The notes below the pieces were generated by a model. It was not told where the DNA came from. It did not search any database and saw nothing but the letters and a program-made list of their open reading frames with translations. A stretch of DNA of 46,813 nucleotides, from the NCBI GenBank assembly GCA_016179765.1, contig JACPCL010000014.1, positions 1 through 46,813 on the forward strand, read 5' to 3'. Each line of letters begins with the position of its first letter. The stretch's first letter is position 1. The translations under genes and the position numbers were made by a program. The DNA is from Chloroflexota bacterium (GTDB taxonomy: Bacteria; Chloroflexota; Dehalococcoidia; Lucifugimonadales; JACPCL1). Shown piece after piece: positions 40,461-46,813 of the stretch.

Positions 40461-40554
40461 TCCCCCTCTCCTAAAGGGAGAGGGGGAAGATTAGTTCTGG
40501 GGGACACCCCCAGACCCCCGCCAAAGGGGCTTCGCCCCTCTGGACTCCCCACTA
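40461..40554 (+). repeat. Dispersed palindromic repeat fragment (copy L) at the secE stop
   Basis: CCCCCTCTCCTAAAGGGAGA then GTTCTGGGGGACACCCCCAG, ACCCCCGCCAAAGGGGCTTC and CTCTGGACTCCCCACTAG. The CTA (40552-40554) is the secE stop on the minus strand. The usual GCAGCCTG right end is missing. Plus orientation. Confidence 0.7.
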
Positions 40555-40800
40555 GATGAACAGGTTTAACATTTGAGAGAAGAGGATGTCCAGGAGGCCC
40601 AGGACGGCGCCGATAGCAGCGGCGATGGCGATGACGAGCATGGTCAGGCGCGTGGTCTCCTGGCGGGTGGGCCAGGTGACCTTCTTAAGTTCACTGACCA
40701 CTTCGCCTAAGAACTGCAACAGGGCAATGCGGCGGCGGGCCTCGTCAGGCGTGGGCCTTCGGAGGATGTTGCCGCCGCTGCTGGTAGGGAGGCGGGCCAC
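40552..40800 (-). CDS. secE: Preprotein translocase subunit SecE
   Basis: An 82-residue single-pass membrane protein. LQFLGEVVSELKKVTWPTRQ is the diagnostic amphipathic segment before the C-terminal membrane helix LTMLVIAIAAAIGAVLGLLD. It starts at GTG 40800 immediately after the rpmG stop, with GAGGT inside rpmG as ribosome site. Its TAG stop overlaps the terminal CTAG of a repeat. Confidence 0.95.
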   Translation of the reverse strand: MARLPTSSGGNILRRPTPDEARRRIALLQFLGEVVSELKKVTWPTRQETTRLTMLVIAIAAAIGAVLGLLDILFSQMLNLFI

Positions 40801-40971
40801 CTACCGGACCTCGCGGTGGAGCTTGTGGCTTCTGCACCGTGGGCAGTACTTGGTGAGCTCTATGCGGTTGGGGTCGTTGCGCCGGTTCTTGGTGGTGCTA
40901 TAGGACCGCTCACGACAGTCGGTGCAACCCAGTGTGACGATGACCCTGGCTTTTGAGCTTTGCTTTGCCAT
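40801..40971 (-). CDS. rpmG: 50S ribosomal protein L33
   Basis: A 56-residue protein starting [20 protein letters not shown]. Two Cys pairs (CTDC and CPRC) show the zinc-binding form, and [19 protein letters not shown] is canonical. It starts 4 nt after tuf and its stop abuts the secE start, the standard tuf-rpmG-secE-nusG order. Confidence 0.95.
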
Positions 40972-40975
40972 GACG

Positions 40976-42163
40976 CTACTCCATGATGGTGATGAAGACG
41001 CCGGAACCCACGGTCCTGCCGCCCTCACGGATGGCGAAGCGGAGTCCCTGCTCCACGGCTACGGGGTAGAGGAGCTTGATATCCATTTCAATGTTGTCTC
41101 CGGGCATCACCATCTCCACGCCCGCGGGCAACTGTATTTCGCCGGTGACGTCGGTGGTGCGGATGAAGAACTGGGGCTTGTACCCGTTGAAGAAGGGGGT
41201 GTGTCGGCCACCCTCTTCCTTGCTCAGGACGTATACTTGGCCCTTCATGTGCATGTGTGGGTTGATGCTGGCGGTCTTGGCCAGCACCTGGCCGCGCACG
41301 ACGTCGTCGCGCTCAACGCCGCGCAGGAGGCAGCCCACGGCGTCGCCTGGCTCGGCGGCGTCCAGGGTTTTGTGGAACATTTCAACGCCGGTGACGACGG
41401 ACTTGCGGGTTGGCGTGATGCCAACGATCTCAATTTCGTCGCCCACCTTGACGGAGCCGCGCTCCACGCGGCCGGTTACCACGGTGCCGCGGCCCTTGAT
41501 GCCGAAGACGTCTTCCACGGGCATGAGGAAGGGCTGGTCCTTGGCGCGCTGTGGGATGGGGATGTACTCGTCCACGGCCTTCATGAGGGCGAGGATGCCC
41601 TTCTCGGCTTCGGGGTCGCCCTCCAGGGCTTTGAGGGCCGAGACGCGGACGACGGGGATCTCGTCGCCGGGGAAGTCATACTTGGAGAGGAGCTCTCGCA
41701 CCTCCAGCTCTACCAGCTCCAGAAGCTCTTCGTCCTCCATGGCGTCCACCTTGTTGAGGGCTACGACGATGCGGGGCACGTCTACCTGGCGAGCGAGAAG
41801 GATGTGCTCACGGGTCTGTGGCATGGGGCCGTCAGGGGCGCTGACCACGAGGATGGCGCCGTCCATCTGGGCTGCGCCGGTGATCATGTTCTTGATGTAG
41901 TCGGCGTGGCCTGGGCAGTCCACGTGGGCGTAGTGCCGGTTGGCGGTCTCGTACTCAATGTGCGCGATGTTGATGGTGACGCCGCGGGCCTTCTCTTCTG
42001 GGGCTGAGTCAATCTGGTCAAAGGCCACGGCCTTTGTGCCCGTGCCATGTTTGGACAGCACTTGGGTGATGGCCGAGGTGAGGGTGGTCTTGCCGTGGTC
42101 CACGTGGCCGATGGTGCCGATGTTCAGGTGGGGTTTGGTGCGCTCAAATCTCTGCTTTGCCAT
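40976..42163 (-). CDS. tuf: Elongation factor Tu
   Basis: A 395-residue GTPase delivering aminoacyl-tRNA to the ribosome. G1 [10 protein letters not shown]2 region [16 protein letters not shown]3 DCPGHADY, G4 NKVD and G5 SALKAL are all intact, as is the C-terminal [19 protein letters not shown] sits directly between the encoded CCA of the upstream tRNA-Thr and the ATG, showing the tRNA-tuf transcript is processed. Confidence 0.98.
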
Positions 42164-42179
42164 AGATGATGCCTCCTGA

Positions 42180-42255
42180 TGGAGCCCACAATCGGGATCG
42201 AACCGATGACCTCGCCCTTACCAAGGGCGTGCTCTACCTGCTGAGCTATGTGGGC
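42180..42255 (-). tRNA. thrT: tRNA-Thr (GGT anticodon)
   Basis: On the minus strand GCCCACA...TGTGGGC pairs perfectly, all four stems are complete, the anticodon loop TTGGTAA reads GGT, and the 3' CCA is encoded (42182-42180). It lies 16 nt before tuf. Confidence 0.95.
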
Positions 42256-42307
42256 CCGATACCTCGGTTTTAGTTTGTTTCCTTTGAAAAGGGTTGACGG
42301 TGATGGG

Positions 42308-42395
42308 TGGTGGAGGGGGTAGGATTCGAACCTACGAAGCCCTTCCGGGCGCCAGATTTACAGTCTGGTGGTATTAGCCACTCGCCCACCCCTCC
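42308..42395 (-). tRNA. tyrU: tRNA-Tyr (GTA anticodon)
   Basis: Class II tRNA with a long variable arm (GCCCGGAAGGGCTTCG region). Acceptor GGAGGGG pairs with CCCCTCC, the anticodon loop is CTGTAAA, and CCA is encoded at 42310-42308. Same strand as the flanking tRNA-Thr genes. Confidence 0.95.
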
Positions 42396-42411
42396 GAAAA
42401 ACGTCACGTAT

Positions 42412-42450
42412 TGTAGCATACCACCTTGAGGTGGGCAAAGCTATGCTACA
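42412..42450. other. Two-tier hairpin between tRNA-Thr and tRNA-Tyr
   Basis: TGTAGCATA (42412-42420) pairs with TATGCTACA (42442-42450), enclosing CCACCT-TG-AGGTGG. It is within the tRNA transcript spacer and may aid processing. The rest of the 263-bp gap shows only another small CAGCC/GGCTG palindrome. Confidence 0.45.
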
Positions 42451-42658
42451 GGCGCCTCGGCTCTGTTTGCTAGGGGATGAAACCACCGCTCCGTACATGG
42501 GGCGGCATCACTCCGCAGCCTTCAGGCTGAGGCACGTCCCGCCAACAGCAAGGGGGATGCTACCTGTGCTCTCCTCTTGATGAGAGCCGGGCCTGGAGAG
42601 GGTGGGTGGGCTGGGGGTGGGGCATTGCCTATGGACGGCCCCTCTAGCTTGGTGACGA

Positions 42659-42731
42659 AGCCCGAGAGGGGAGTCGAACCCACCAACCTGCCGATTACAA
42701 ATCGGCTGCGCTGCCATTGCGCCACTCGGGC
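42659..42731 (-). tRNA. thrU: tRNA-Thr (TGT anticodon)
   Basis: GCCCGAG pairs with CTCGGGC. The anticodon loop TTTGTAA reads TGT, and D and T arms are regular (GGTTCGACTCC). CCA is not encoded. First gene of the tRNA-tuf operon. Confidence 0.93.
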
Positions 42732-42753
42732 GGGCTGCTAGGTACCACCAGAA

Positions 42754-42785
42754 GCGCAACTCAAGCCTTCCGGCTTGAGTTGCGC
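42754..42785. other. Perfect hairpin in the leader of the tRNA-tuf operon
   Basis: GCGCAACTCAAGCC-TTCC-GGCTTGAGTTGCGC, a 14-bp perfect stem between the promoter (42825-42853) and tRNA-Thr(TGT). No T-tract on the minus strand, so a processing or pausing element is more likely than a terminator. Confidence 0.5.
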
Positions 42786-42824
42786 ACACGAACTATCCTG
42801 GCCTAGGGCCTGGCTAACCCATTA

Positions 42825-42853
42825 AGTATACGGGAGAGCGTGGCCAGGGTCAA
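42825..42853 (-). promoter_or_regulatory. Promoter of the tRNA-Thr/Tyr/Thr-tuf operon
   Basis: On the minus strand TTGACC (42853-42848), exactly 17 bp, TATACT (42830-42825). Near-consensus sigma70 type, about 90 bp upstream of the first tRNA. Confidence 0.65.
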
Positions 42854-42983
42854 GGTGAGGGGGCTCTATGAGCGTGGGAGTGGCGTGGGAGTTAGGACCT
42901 TCCTTGGCAGGCTGGCTCAGGAATGGTGGGACTGCAGCGGGATGTACCTGGTTTTCGCTACGGGAATGAGGGAATAAGGCTCA

Positions 42984-43012
42984 TTGCCTACCCGGTAGGC
43001 ACCTGTCATAAT
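42984..43012 (+). promoter_or_regulatory. Possible promoter of the aminotransferase gene
   Basis: TTGCCT (42984-42989), 17 bp, CATAAT (43007-43012), about 90 bp before GTG 43106. Moderately good match. Confidence 0.4.
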
Positions 43013-43105
43013 GCGGGCCAAAGGATGGGAGCATGAGCATGGCAGGGGAAAGGCATTGGGGCGGTGGTATCATAGAGGCATTTCCAGGGAGAAGGGAGGG
43101 CTAAG

Positions 43106-44383
43106 GTGGCAAACACGCGTGGAGGAGATTGGGCAGCAAGGGCCGCCAACCTGTGGCGGCAGGTGGAATTGCGCTCCCTCCTGAGCCGTGCGGTCATCGC
43201 CGTAGGGGCTGGCAACCCAACGGATGCTGGCGTCTCCTGGACATTGCCTACCGAGGCGGAGCGCCCCATTGTCTTGGGCGCAGGCGTGCCTGATCCGGCC
43301 ACCATGCCGGTGGACGATCTGCGCGACGCCCTTCATCATGTGCTCTCCACGGAGGCCGAGGAGGCGTTGAGCTACGGCGGCGTCCTAGGCTTCTCGGGCC
43401 TGCGGGAGGCCCTGGCCCAGCGCCAGAGCCGGCTGGACGGCCTGGCCCTGGAGCCAGAGAACTTCCTGCTGAACAACGGTGGCGCTGGCAGCATTGACTC
43501 CGTATGCCGGGCCTTTCTGGAGCCTGGCGACGCCGCCATCATTGAAGGGCCTACCTTCTCCGGCTCGGCCCGGACCTTCCGGGGCCATCTGGCAGAGGTG
43601 GCCCAGGCGCCCCTGGATGAGGAGGGCTTACTGGTGGGGATAGCATCCGAGGCCATCAAAAAAGCGGAGCGGGCTGGCAGGCGGGTCAAGCTACTCTATA
43701 CCGTGCCCGACTTTCACAACCCCACGGGGGCTACCCTCTCCCTGGGCCGGCGGTACGACCTGCTGGAGCTGTGCGCGGCCCACCAGGTGCTGATCCTAGA
43801 GGACACCGCCTATACCGAACTGTACTTCAATGATCCGCCGCCGCCTTCCCTCTACTCCCTCAGCCAAGGAGAGGGTGTACTGAAGGTGGGGAGCTTCAGC
43901 AAGATTATTGCCCCAGGCCTGCGCGTTGGGTGGGTGCAGGGCCGTCCGGACTTCATAGAGGCTCTGGCCCGGGTGCGGTACGATATGGGGGTCAGCCCAC
44001 TGCTACTGCGGGCGCTGGCAGAGCACGTCGGCGGTGGCAGGCTGGAGGCCCACCTGAAGGGTATGCGCCCCATCTACGCGGAGAAGTGTGAGACGTTGAG
44101 CCGCTCCCTTCAGGAGCACTGCGCCGGGTATGTTCGCTTCCGAAAGCCTGCCGGCGGGTTCTTCCTGTGGGTGGAGTGCCTGGGGCCGTCGGCCCGAGAG
44201 ATACGGGAGGCCGCGGCCCTGGAGGGGCTGGTCTTCCCTGGAGGCGATAGCTTCTACCTCCGCCGGGAGCAAGACGACGCCTCCCACCTGCGCCTGGCCT
44301 TCAGCACGGCATCCCTGGAAGAGTTGGCGGAGGTTGGGCCGCGGCTGCGCGCCGCCTTCAGGCGCGCCTTGGGCGAGGGATAG
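43106..44383 (+). CDS. PLP-dependent aminotransferase, class I/II (2-aminoadipate/MocR-like subgroup)
   Basis: A 425-residue fold-type I aminotransferase. SFSKIIAPGLRVGW holds the Schiff-base Lys and Arg; VPDFHNPTGATLS is the NPTG motif and EDTAYTELYF the Asp and Tyr pair. ALSYGGVLGFSGLREALAQR matches the alpha-aminoadipate aminotransferase (LysN-like) and MocR catalytic domain type, without a GntR DNA-binding domain. Substrate uncertain: aromatic, branched-chain or aminoadipate. GGGAGGG precedes GTG 43106. Confidence 0.9.
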   Translation: MANTRGGDWAARAANLWRQVELRSLLSRAVIAVGAGNPTDAGVSWTLPTEAERPIVLGAGVPDPATMPVDDLRDALHHVLSTEAEEALSYGGVLGFSGLREALAQRQSRLDGLALEPENFLLNNGGAGSIDSVCRAFLEPGDAAIIEGPTFSGSARTFRGHLAEVAQAPLDEEGLLVGIASEAIKKAERAGRRVKLLYTVPDFHNPTGATLSLGRRYDLLELCAAHQVLILEDTAYTELYFNDPPPPSLYSLSQGEGVLKVGSFSKIIAPGLRVGWVQGRPDFIEALARVRYDMGVSPLLLRALAEHVGGGRLEAHLKGMRPIYAEKCETLSRSLQEHCAGYVRFRKPAGGFFLWVECLGPSAREIREAAALEGLVFPGGDSFYLRREQDDASHLRLAFSTASLEELAEVGPRLRAAFRRALGEG

Positions 44384-44478
44384 AGTTCTTGGTGATTGTA
44401 CCTTGACACGGTACTCATAAGGGCACGTTTTTGGCCAAGGGGTGGGCGACCTAACCCGCCCCTCTCCCTGGACTTGCC

Positions 44479-44553
44479 TGGTGGCAACGGGTGGATTCGA
44501 ACCGCCGACCTAACGCTTATGAAGCGTCCGTTCTGCTATTGAGCTACGTTGCC
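44479..44553 (-). tRNA. tRNA-Met (CAT anticodon)
   Basis: GGCAACG pairs with CGTTGCC, discriminator A and encoded CCA (44481-44479). The anticodon loop TTCATAA reads CAT. There is one mismatch each in the D stem and the T stem (C-A). Elongator Met is most likely; tRNA-Ile2 with lysidine at C34 cannot be excluded from sequence alone. Confidence 0.82.
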
Positions 44554-44686
44554 ACCGAATGGGAGAGACCAGACGCCCCTTCCCCTAGCCTCGCCACATA
44601 GCATCTTACGGCCCGCCAAAGGTGGGTGGCAATTCCTTGCGCGTTGGCGCTTTGGAACGCAGCGTCCGTCTCGCACCTGTGCGTCC

Positions 44687-44886
44687 TAGCAGGCTGCTGA
44701 AAAGCACCCCCAAACCCCCTCAAGGGGGTTCAAGGTATCCGCCTGCGGCGGATTGATTTGTATCTGGGGGACACCCCCACACCCCCGCCCCTTCGCTACC
44801 CCCTTCACTGCGTTCAGGGCTTCGGCTCACCAGGGCAGGCTCCGGGGCTTCGCCCCTCTGGACACCCCTTTTTCACACCCTCCTCG
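44687..44886 (+). repeat. Dispersed palindromic repeat, copy K
   Basis: CTAGCAGGCTGCTGAAAAGC on the left, then CCCCCTCAAGGGGG, a hairpin ATCCGCCTGCGGCGGAT with compensatory changes, GTATCTGGGGGACACCCCCAC and GGGGCTTCGCCCC. The right end is decayed (TTTTTCACACCCTCCTCGG). Plus orientation. Confidence 0.8.
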
Positions 44887-44899
44887 GGAAGAGCAAGGG

Positions 44900-45015
44900 T
44901 TGACAGTCATCTGGAAGATGGCCGTATACTCTCGCCTATGGAGTGGCTGTTGCCGAGATAGCGGCGACATGGGAACCTGAGTTCAGTGGAGAGGGAAGCC
45001 CCCCTGGGGCTTCCT
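44900..45015 (+). promoter_or_regulatory. Possible promoter and leader hairpin upstream of the LLM oxidoreductase
   Basis: TTGACA (44900-44905) and GTATAC/TATACT (44924-44930) with 18-19 bp spacing, followed by a leader of about 170 nt containing GGAAGCCCC-CCT-GGGGCTTCC near 44994-45014. It could drive the LLM oxidoreductase and UGSC genes. The rest of the 548-bp gap is repeat copy K. Confidence 0.4.
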
Positions 45016-45101
45016 TGAAAGCAAGATAGGAGTTTGTCCTGGCAGGACTCTCGGCCTACATTGAGCGGAAAGTCCCTGTCCAGGGCGCCGGAGGAGTAGC
45101 C

Positions 45102-46046
45102 GTGCCAGCAAAAGCAAACATAGCGGTGTTGATCCCCAAAGCCTTCGCCGGTCCTATGCCCACGCCCCAGGAGTACACCAGCTTCTTCCGGTCAGCCGAG
45201 TCCCTGGGGTTCCACTCACTGTGGACTACCGAGCGCATCATCCACCAGATCAATATCCTTGACGCCTTTACGGCGTTGGCGTGGGCGGCGACGGTGACCA
45301 GCAGGATCAAACTGGGTAGCGCAGTCACCCTAGCCCTGCTCCGTCATCCCCTGGTGCTGGCTAGGACGGTTTCCAGCCTGGACTACCTTTCGGGCGGCCG
45401 GTTTATTCTGGGTCTCTCTCTGGGTGGACACCCGGAGGAGCTGGAGGCGATGGAGGTTAACGTCCGGCAGCGCCGGCGCCGCCTTGAGGAGACGATCGCC
45501 CTCCTTCGCCAGCTCTGGGACCACCCAGACGTCTCCTTCCAGGGTCGCCATTACCATATGGAGAAAGCCACGGTCGCTCCCCACCCCACGGCAGGAAAAC
45601 GGTTGCCCATACTCCTGGGCGGCTCGGCGGACCCGCTTCTGCACAGGGTGGTAGCCATGGCCGACGGCTGGCTTGCCAGCTCCTCGGTGCTGCCAGACCA
45701 ACTCCGCGAGCGGCGTGACACCCTTCACCGCATGGCCCGAGAGACGGGCAGGGAGACAGGGACCTTGGAGATCGGCAAGCTCCTGTACCTGGCCATAGAC
45801 GACGATCCTGCCAGGGCCCGAAAGCGCATCGCGTCGTCCATGCAGGACTATTATGGAGCAGGGTTTGACGTGGACCGGCTATGTCCCTTTGGACCGCCGG
45901 AGGTGTGCGCCCGGGGCATCCAACCGTATCTGGACGCGGGCGTCACCACCCTCATGCTGGGGCTTGCCTGGCCCAGTGTCCGGGAGCTGGAGCGTCTGCA
46001 CCACGAGGTGCTGCCACTCCTTGACACAGCCGTCAAGCAATCGTAG
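45102..46046 (+). CDS. LLM-class (luciferase-like) F420- or FMN-dependent oxidoreductase
   Basis: A 314-residue TIM-barrel flavin-dependent enzyme. SAESLGFHSLWTTERI, TSRIKLGSAVTLALLRHPLV and YLSGGRFILGLSLGGHPEEL are the bacterial luciferase-like signatures, and the phosphate-binding region GGSADPLLHRVVAMADGW follows. Many Chloroflexota members use F420, but cofactor and substrate cannot be settled from sequence. GGAGGAG supports GTG 45102. The UGSC selenoprotein starts 50 bp downstream on the same strand, so the two are probably one transcript. Confidence 0.9.
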   Translation: MPAKANIAVLIPKAFAGPMPTPQEYTSFFRSAESLGFHSLWTTERIIHQINILDAFTALAWAATVTSRIKLGSAVTLALLRHPLVLARTVSSLDYLSGGRFILGLSLGGHPEELEAMEVNVRQRRRRLEETIALLRQLWDHPDVSFQGRHYHMEKATVAPHPTAGKRLPILLGGSADPLLHRVVAMADGWLASSSVLPDQLRERRDTLHRMARETGRETGTLEIGKLLYLAIDDDPARARKRIASSMQDYYGAGFDVDRLCPFGPPEVCARGIQPYLDAGVTTLMLGLAWPSVRELERLHHEVLPLLDTAVKQS

Positions 46047-46095
46047 TCTTCTGGCGTACCAGGTTCTCAGACGTGCGACCCCAGGAGATGCCACC

Positions 46096-46653
46096 ATGCC
46101 TACCAGCAGGACCGCCACAATTCGCGTGCTGGATCCGAGTGCTTCCCCACGGGATTCCCATTGTACGAACGCGCAACGCTTGTCAACCCTACGTGGCCGC
46201 TCCATTGGGTTTCTTTGGAATAGCAAGCCCAACGGCGACGTCCTCTTTACAGAACTGGAGGAGTCGCTGCGTCGGGACCACCGCATTGGAGCCTCACTTC
46301 ACCTCAGCAAGCCTAGCTCTTCTCTCCCGGCGGCAAAGGAGTTGATCGCCAGACTGGCGTCCTCTGTGAGCGCCGTTATCGTTGGCATTGGCGACTGAGG
46401 CTCCTGCACATCATGGAGTGTCCATGACGCAGTTGAACTTGAAACCCTTGGCGTACCCACGGTTACGGTCTGCACCGACAGATTCAAAGGACTCGCTGAG
46501 CTAGAGCGCGGAACGCTGGGTATGCCGCAGCTTGCCCTGGCTATCGCACAACACCCCATCGGGGGCCTGGCTCCCGAGGCCATGCGCTCCAAAGCAATAG
46601 AACTGCTCGGTCACGTGGTCTCCGGGCTGACAACCGCCAAGGTGACAGCGTGA
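46096..46653 (+). CDS. UGSC-family selenoprotein (in-frame TGA read as selenocysteine)
   Basis: A conventional reading stops at TGA 46396-46398 after 100 residues (ending VSAVIVGIGD). The same frame continues without interruption for 84 more codons to TGA 46651: GSCTSWSVHDAVELETLGVP, then TVTVCTDRFKG and IGGLAPEAMRSKAIE. GIGD-U-GSCTSWSVHDAVELE is the hallmark of UGSC proteins, where U101 and C104 form a Sec-x-x-Cys redox motif. A hairpin with the properties of a bacterial SECIS lies just after the UGA. AGGAG precedes ATG 46096 at good spacing. The protein has 185 residues including Sec, the family's usual length as I recall it. The family's function is not established; a redox or thiol-handling role is inferred. 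selABCD are not in the window. Confidence 0.88.
46399..46427 (+). promoter_or_regulatory. Candidate bacterial SECIS element
   Basis: After the UGA, 12 nt are followed by TCATGGA (46411-46417), loop GTG (46418-46420) and TCCATGA (46421-46427): a perfect 7-bp stem. The loop starts 19 nt after the UGA and has G first, which fits the consensus for SelB-binding elements. Confidence 0.7.
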
Positions 46654-46754
46654 CCAATCGATTTGAGGCAGGTATGGTGCCACTCACCTCTCGTCTCCTT
46701 GAAGTGCAGGACGACCTAGTACCTACTTACGTAATTGATTATACAGAGGTTTGA
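46650..46754 (+). other. Short reading frame overlapping the UGSC stop (GTGA)
   Basis: GTG 46650 overlaps the UGSC stop by two bases and reads VTNRFEAGMVPLTSRLLEVQ then DDLVPTYVIDYTEV before TGA 46752; the frame then continues EGLGGRLLWST to another TGA. It may be a small co-translated gene, a fragment, or chance. No family recognised. Confidence 0.25.
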
Positions 46755-46813
46755 GAGGGTCTTGGTGGACGGTTGCTTTGGTCCACTTGAAGGGTACGGG
46801 GTGCTGGTTTCGC

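Follow-up and report, generated by a model that had tools for sequence, protein, structure and literature searches.

The locus examined here raises the question of whether an in-frame TGA, close to the end of a Chloroflexota contig, is a stop codon or is decoded as selenocysteine (Sec) and, if the latter, what the resulting protein might do. The window, i.e. the whole stretch of DNA that was analysed, is 46,813 nucleotides in length. The first-pass annotation had read positions 46096-46653 as a selenoprotein gene of the UGSC family, and its description of the open reading frame agrees with the sequence: codon 101 is TGA, 84 sense codons follow it in the same frame and the residues around it read exactly GIGD-U-GSC-TSWSVHDAVELE. 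The relevant features are as follows.

42183-42255, 42311-42395, 42659-42731 and 44482-44553, minus strand: four tRNA genes (Rfam scan)
45102..46046, plus strand: LLM-class F420-dependent oxidoreductase gene, upstream, 49 bp from the UGSC start (PF00296, 186.6 bits; TIGR03619, 175.7 bits, cut-off 166.9)
46083..46087, plus strand: AGGAG, from its sequence a probable ribosome-binding site, 8 nt ahead of the ATG
46096..46653, plus strand: UGSC-family selenoprotein gene, 185 residues with Sec at 101, ATG at 46096, terminal stop TGA at 46651-46653
46396..46398, plus strand: in-frame TGA, codon 101, decoded as selenocysteine (residue 101)
46405..46407, plus strand: Cys104, second cysteine of the UxxC motif and candidate resolving thiol
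46411..46427, plus strand: bacterial SECIS-like hairpin within the coding sequence, 7-bp stem and GUG loop

The F420-dependent oxidoreductase gene and the UGSC gene possibly belong to the same operon.

At the local base composition an open stretch of 84 codons is expected by chance with a probability of about 0.04, so the open frame past the TGA proves little by itself. What raises it above chance is the homology that continues beyond the TGA, the pattern of substitutions there and the covariation of the hairpin. The read-through protein was expected to belong to the UGSC family, and it passes both curated cut-offs, scoring 168.8 bits with the Pfam UGSC model (PF24696, cut-off 25, residues 11-179) and 140.8 bits with the NCBIfam model UGSC_fam (NF041046, cut-off 125); the query for these values carried an extra C for the final stop, and the domain alone gives 168.4 and 141.1 bits, respectively. 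The 91 loci examined comprise 37 Sec sites and 55 Cys loci, with both kinds present in one locus (L071). Exactly one in-frame TGA is present in the domain at 37/37 Sec-type sites, the Sec/Cys column is invariant in all 40 aligned members (37 Sec, 3 Cys), and the second Cys of the UxxC motif is nearly invariant among the members. Homologues with Cys at position 101, suggested earlier as a check, do exist, although the 55 Cys-type relatives give no frequency because the pattern used to gather them required Cys. A single TGA is also found in every UGSC match among the matches listed for genomes of the class, of which the 29 loci L090-L118 are the best-scoring matches and not a random sample. On a Xanthobacteraceae MAG contig (L071, 5159-5692, minus strand) a Sec-type UGSC (GVGLUSSC) lies beside a Cys-type one.

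Comparison with a same-genus orthologue (L023) reveals 15, 12 and 46 changes at codon positions 1, 2 and 3, respectively, in the 80 codons after the TGA, and 20, 8 and 36 in the 70 codons before it. Substitutions after the TGA are thus mostly at third codon positions, i.e. purifying selection acts downstream of it.

The first-pass annotation had placed a 7-bp hairpin 19 nt downstream of the TGA. The hairpin is present (TCATGGA 46411-46417, loop GTG 46418-46420, TCCATGA 46421-46427), but it is the loop that lies 19 nt past the TGA; the stem begins after 12 nt. Other Sec-type UGSC genes have counterparts at the same offset. Across 35 distinct Sec genes, 87.3% of the stem cells are paired compared with 74.6% in shuffles, cells with a double change number 24 compared with 7.8, and the covariation score is 0.323, compared with 0.132 in shuffles and at most 0.104 when the stem is slid; pairs with a double change number 5 against 2.8, a count that 34 of 500 shuffles reach. 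In Cys-type genes 43.4% of the stem cells pair, which is within the slid controls, and the loop begins with G at 32/37 Sec sites versus 0/55 Cys sites. The hairpin therefore covaries across the Sec genes, and the Cys genes do not preserve it. Among these related sequences the Val codon tracks the neighbouring residue in the way that matches the stem (GTG in 12/12 with Cys-x-Val, GTC in 6/6 with Trp-x-Val). Folding of the 45 nt past the TGA in the window is not below that of synonymous-codon shuffles (z +0.30; 60.5% as low), and with such shuffles the group signal is weak (mean z -0.74 for the 37 Sec sites and -0.08 for the 55 Cys sites); domain matches under 60 bits were left out before the fold-energy and hairpin counts. 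Covariation is the better test of this hairpin than fold energy. An Rfam scan of 40500-46813 returned the four tRNAs only, with no match inside the UGSC gene at E up to 1.

The further claim that the organism possesses Sec machinery stands for tRNA-Sec, SelA and SelB; SelD was not found in the assembly. The source assembly (2.29 Mb, 53 contigs, 94.83% complete) encodes a tRNA-Sec with the anticodon UCA (65.1 bits, Rfam cut-off 47; confirmed by ARAGORN), SelA (537.3 bits, cut-off 267.9) and SelB (308 bits, 340.3 with the in-frame neighbour and 339.7 for the whole protein; cut-off 242.25), all of them located elsewhere in the assembly, away from the UGSC gene. The best SelD score in this incomplete assembly is 74.3 bits against a cut-off of 125. 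Because SelD is present in two of three other genomes of the same genus (366.6 and 384 bits, one in-frame TGA each), we infer that the gap reflects missing sequence. These SelD genes with an in-frame TGA are at G002:C228 (L030) and G003:C314 (L029). One locus considered as SelD (L019) scores below the cut-off and was rejected; it lies beside a TsaE-like gene and is presumably a thiamine-monophosphate kinase. A second tRNA-Sec candidate on contig C30, above the Rfam cut-off with 49.5 bits, is a tRNA-Ser by ARAGORN and was likewise set aside.

Under the standard code the frame is closed at codon 101, and a true stop leaving a 100-residue protein, a pseudogene or a sequencing error would accommodate this as well as the unexceptional hairpin energy of the window. 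Such a reading has to contend with the single TGA at the same place in all 37 Sec sites, with purifying selection past it, with the covarying hairpin and with the Sec machinery in the assembly; neither a lack of selB/selC nor homologues that end at the TGA with no conservation beyond it were seen. Short of proteomics we judge it refuted, and its remaining chance is very small. Still smaller is the chance of a genome-wide reassignment of TGA, for instance to Trp, for which nothing was found in favour and which we also judge refuted: the UGSC frame itself terminates at a TGA, tRNA-Sec, SelA and SelB are present, and the relatives carry Cys, not Trp, at the aligned residue. It is nearly certain that the gene encodes a selenoprotein, and we regard its Sec coding as an observation. 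The earlier warning that gene callers would lose the catalytic half of the protein need not hold for every standard pipeline, since the NCBI model NF041046 is titled '(seleno)protein'.

The Sec gene itself thus belongs to a known family, in print since at least 2008 (PMC2398784). The accessible part of that study places UGSC among the commoner selenoprotein families of aquatic metagenomes, with 255 Sec sequences in the GOS set, and that of a 2026 review (PMC13188914) lists it among selenoproteins with largely uncharacterised functions. Our survey of the class of the source organism found UGSC in 94 of 294 genomes. SelA, at E 1e-60 or better, is encoded in 197 of the 294, i.e. in 84/94 genomes with UGSC versus 113/200 others (Fisher P 5.6e-9, with kinship among genomes uncorrected), and the assemblies of ten UGSC genomes are without SelA. 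At least 11 UGSC copies were observed in each of five class genomes (G024, G030, G031, G048 and G049), and the source assembly has a second UGSC selenoprotein gene (G000:C22:3108-3608; L027, L119). What our analysis adds, and what is worth following, is a link to the GrdB/PrdB proteins and a partner family.

An NCBIfam scan of 40 UGSC members at E up to 0.1 reveals matches to the GrdB model TIGR01917 in 26 members (best 2.5e-6), the other 14 being without one, as well as to GrdF (17), TIGR01918 (14), PrdB (TIGR04483; 9) and GrdH (7). Families outside the GrdB/PrdB group are each matched by at most 3 of the 40, and one stray unrelated model, NF041563, reaches 9.9e-5 for a single member. The window protein matches TIGR01917 with E 0.0012 and 17.9 bits, against a cut-off of 602.2, over model positions 325-407 of 431; with TIGR01918 it scores 13.6 bits, below the cut-off of 65.45. 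In the GrdB of C. sticklandii, according to the available text of PMC3091704, Sec is residue 350 of 436. Profile alignment with hhalign of 91 UGSC domains to 21 read-through GrdB/PrdB-like sequences gives a score of 54.3 (probability 94.5%) and places Sec on Sec; reversed profiles score 19.4 and 20.9, and among 30 column shuffles the highest score is 17.5. Sec-type UGSC compared with four full-length GrdB sequences scores 44.2, and UGSC compared with the PrdB-like sequences alone only 33.5 (44.3%). Judged from these profiles, UGSC is very probably homologous to the Sec domain of GrdB/PrdB.

None of the 40 UGSC members matches the Pfam GrdB model, PF07355. Matches to this model end 0 to 3 residues ahead of the in-frame TGA (21 loci, among L142-L169, whose sequence was followed past it), which is probably why Pfam lacks the link; the proteins underlying the model were apparently cut short at the Sec codon. 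No statement of a link between UGSC and GrdB/PrdB was found in the accessible portions of the open-licence PMC literature.

The source assembly also contains a PrdB-like selenoprotein gene on another contig (G000:C31:33932-34360 and beyond; L148:1501-2241). Read through its TGA, that protein scores 90.0 bits with TIGR01918 (cut-off 65.45) and 179.5 bits with TIGR04483 (cut-off 300). Because this separate gene exists, UGSC is not simply the PrdB of the organism.

The UxxC motif could also be that of a thioredoxin-like redox protein. The AlphaFold2 model of the UGSC domain (19 aligned sequences, mean pLDDT 90.5) predicts five strands and five helices in alternation (beta-alpha x5); Sec101 follows strand 93-99 and precedes helix 102-117. 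The order of strands and helices in thioredoxin differs from this arrangement. The predicted structure does not seem to match the 'likely Trx-like fold' mentioned in the available part of PMC2398784, a statement in favour of the thioredoxin-like reading. This reading would fit the thioredoxin-reductase-like neighbours of the Cys homologues (see below) and a peroxidase activity of GrdB itself, the latter known to us from the title of a reference; no thioredoxin is found among the best 50 Foldseek rows, however, and the models matched by several UGSC members are those of GrdB/PrdB. We consider it unlikely. At E 0.001 or better, Foldseek searches of solved structures found no match for the UGSC model or for a model of a fused Cys-type protein (pLDDT 80.2). 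Sequence searches of the PDB gave a best E of 0.068 with the UGSC profile and 0.45 with a GrdB protein, and nothing up to 1 with the profile of the fused protein.

Analysis of the gene neighbourhoods reveals a partner. In 15 of the 21 neighbourhoods from the class, UGSC shares its strand with an adjacent or fused coding sequence for a protein that carries the motif W-[TS]-D-G-L-P and for which no credible match was found in Pfam or NCBIfam; 20 of the 21 were fetched from three non-random sources (the organism's own second copy, the same genus and the top scorers). In these 15 the partner gene lies at most 300 bp from UGSC or overlaps it, and in L122 and L124 it occupies the same reading frame as UGSC, beyond the TGA. 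The second UGSC locus of the source assembly, on C22, comes with a partner gene of its own, which lies 12 bp upstream. The partner motif is present in 56 sequences of the Sec-type and Cys-type sets combined, and the partner is linked to UGSC. Cys-type frames are at least 500 aa long in 44/55 loci, which is consistent with the UGSC/Unknown_1 fusion mentioned in the accessible part of PMC2398784. Invariant residues of the partner in the 56 sequences include W31, D33, N78, N146, R151 and E185, and none of its Cys residues is conserved in more than 33 of them. With the GrdE profile, built from two GrdE sequences only, the partner scores 14.2 against a reversed control of 16.0, and no homology is seen. 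The pyruvoyl proprotein GrdE/PrdA (PF09338) was not found in the source genome or in 10 further UGSC genomes (11 of 12 tested); it is present in all three genomes that were picked because they encode a full-length GrdB, and among these G077 carries UGSC as well.

A thioredoxin-reductase-like gene, recognised by motif, lies within 1.5 kb in 35/55 Cys-type loci, and none of the 247 ORFs in the 21 Sec-type neighbourhoods from the class of the source organism shows this motif. The thioredoxin-reductase-like gene of L053 scores 303.5 bits with TIGR01292, under the cut-off of 343.45, and Pyr_redox_2 genes adjoin UGSC in L039 and L042. Other neighbours of UGSC encode MmgE/PrpD, CoA-transferase family III, amidase, thiolase-like and luciferase-like proteins.

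Two features at the contig end concern the partner of the window gene itself.

46674..46715, plus strand: initial 14 codons of the partner gene, which a repeat at the contig end cuts off (MVPLTSRLLEVQDD, compared with MSHLSSQLYEVQDD at the partner start in L120)
46716..46813, strand not given: terminal part of a repeated element (probably an insertion sequence); the contig breaks here

These last 98 bases are found again at the ends of two other contigs, C13 and C30. The opposite border of the repeat, C22:1-99 (L119), has further copies in C26 and at the C14 end, and CTAG is present at both borders. Just past the repeat C22 carries on with AVNQLFMDKSWSDGLP, and the remaining partner is at the start of this contig. 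With the partner start ahead of the repeat and its continuation on C22, the partner gene of the window's UGSC has probably been interrupted by the repeated element, as far as contig ends, rather than an assembled junction, indicate.

Taking these observations together, we favour, with a probability of roughly 0.55, the explanation that UGSC is a Sec-nucleophile reductase, homologous to GrdB/PrdB, which works with a substrate-binding partner. Aided by the hairpin at 46411-46427, tRNA-Sec and SelB would insert Sec at the UGA 46396-46398; the product is predicted to be a small domain in which alpha and beta elements alternate and a helix starts at Sec, and it is very probably homologous to the Sec domain of GrdB/PrdB. 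By analogy, the selenolate may attack a carbon of an activated substrate and displace a leaving group, Cys104 may resolve the selenoether or Se-S intermediate, and a disulfide reductase, as putative electron donor, may then re-reduce UGSC. The unclassified partner, adjoining or fused, would take the place of the pyruvoyl protein GrdE/PrdA in holding the substrate. In the mechanism proposed for PrdB in the available text of PMC3091704, the substrate is attached to the pyruvoyl group when Sec attacks it, a PrdB Cys then breaks the selenoether, and the selenol is regenerated by a reductase; according to the same text, the glycine system relies on NADPH with thioredoxin reductase and thioredoxin for this regeneration. 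Since the Sec domains are very probably homologous, the second Cys is conserved and disulfide-reductase genes neighbour the Cys relatives, the same GrdB-like reductive chemistry is our best guess for UGSC, somewhat better than an even bet.

The catabolic neighbours (CoA-transferase family III, MmgE/PrpD, amidase and thiolase-like) might instead point to Sec acting with the partner as a nucleophile without net redox change, e.g. in a transferase, racemase or lyase, and there is a very weak profile match to an aspartate/glutamate racemase chain (E 0.43). The disulfide-reductase neighbours of the Cys homologues speak against this, and a redox cycle is favoured because the second Cys of the UxxC motif is nearly invariant; we regard a non-redox role as quite improbable. 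UGSC with its partner might form, alongside the glycine and D-proline reductases, a third branch of reductases with a Sec nucleophile, in which a new substrate-binding family replaces the pyruvoyl subunit, a tentative idea to which we would give somewhat under even odds. As UGSC is widespread in the class and its copies sit among varied catabolic genes, such a branch may be a family of enzymes that depend on Sec to cleave bonds in many substrates. With the link to GrdB/PrdB and to one partner family, what was an 'unknown redox protein' gains an enzyme hypothesis that can be tested.

Compared with protein B of glycine, sarcosine and betaine reductase (GrdB/GrdF/GrdH; TIGR01917, TIGR01918), UGSC has a Sec region that is very probably homologous, with Sec on Sec followed by G and C. 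However, it is without the long N-terminal part (185 versus about 436 residues, the latter from the available text of PMC3091704), scores far under the curated cut-offs, and in 11/12 UGSC genomes no GrdE-type pyruvoyl partner was found. PrdB of D-proline reductase is, like UGSC, a short Sec protein of similar size, whose model (TIGR04483) is matched by 9/40 UGSC members at E up to 0.1. With the UGSC family itself (PF24696; NF041046; the 'UGSC-containing' selenoprotein in the accessible part of PMC2398784) the window gene shares the motif, the Sec codon, the hairpin and the scores. Nothing essential differs, although its partner gene appears interrupted, and the window gene is an ordinary member of this described family.
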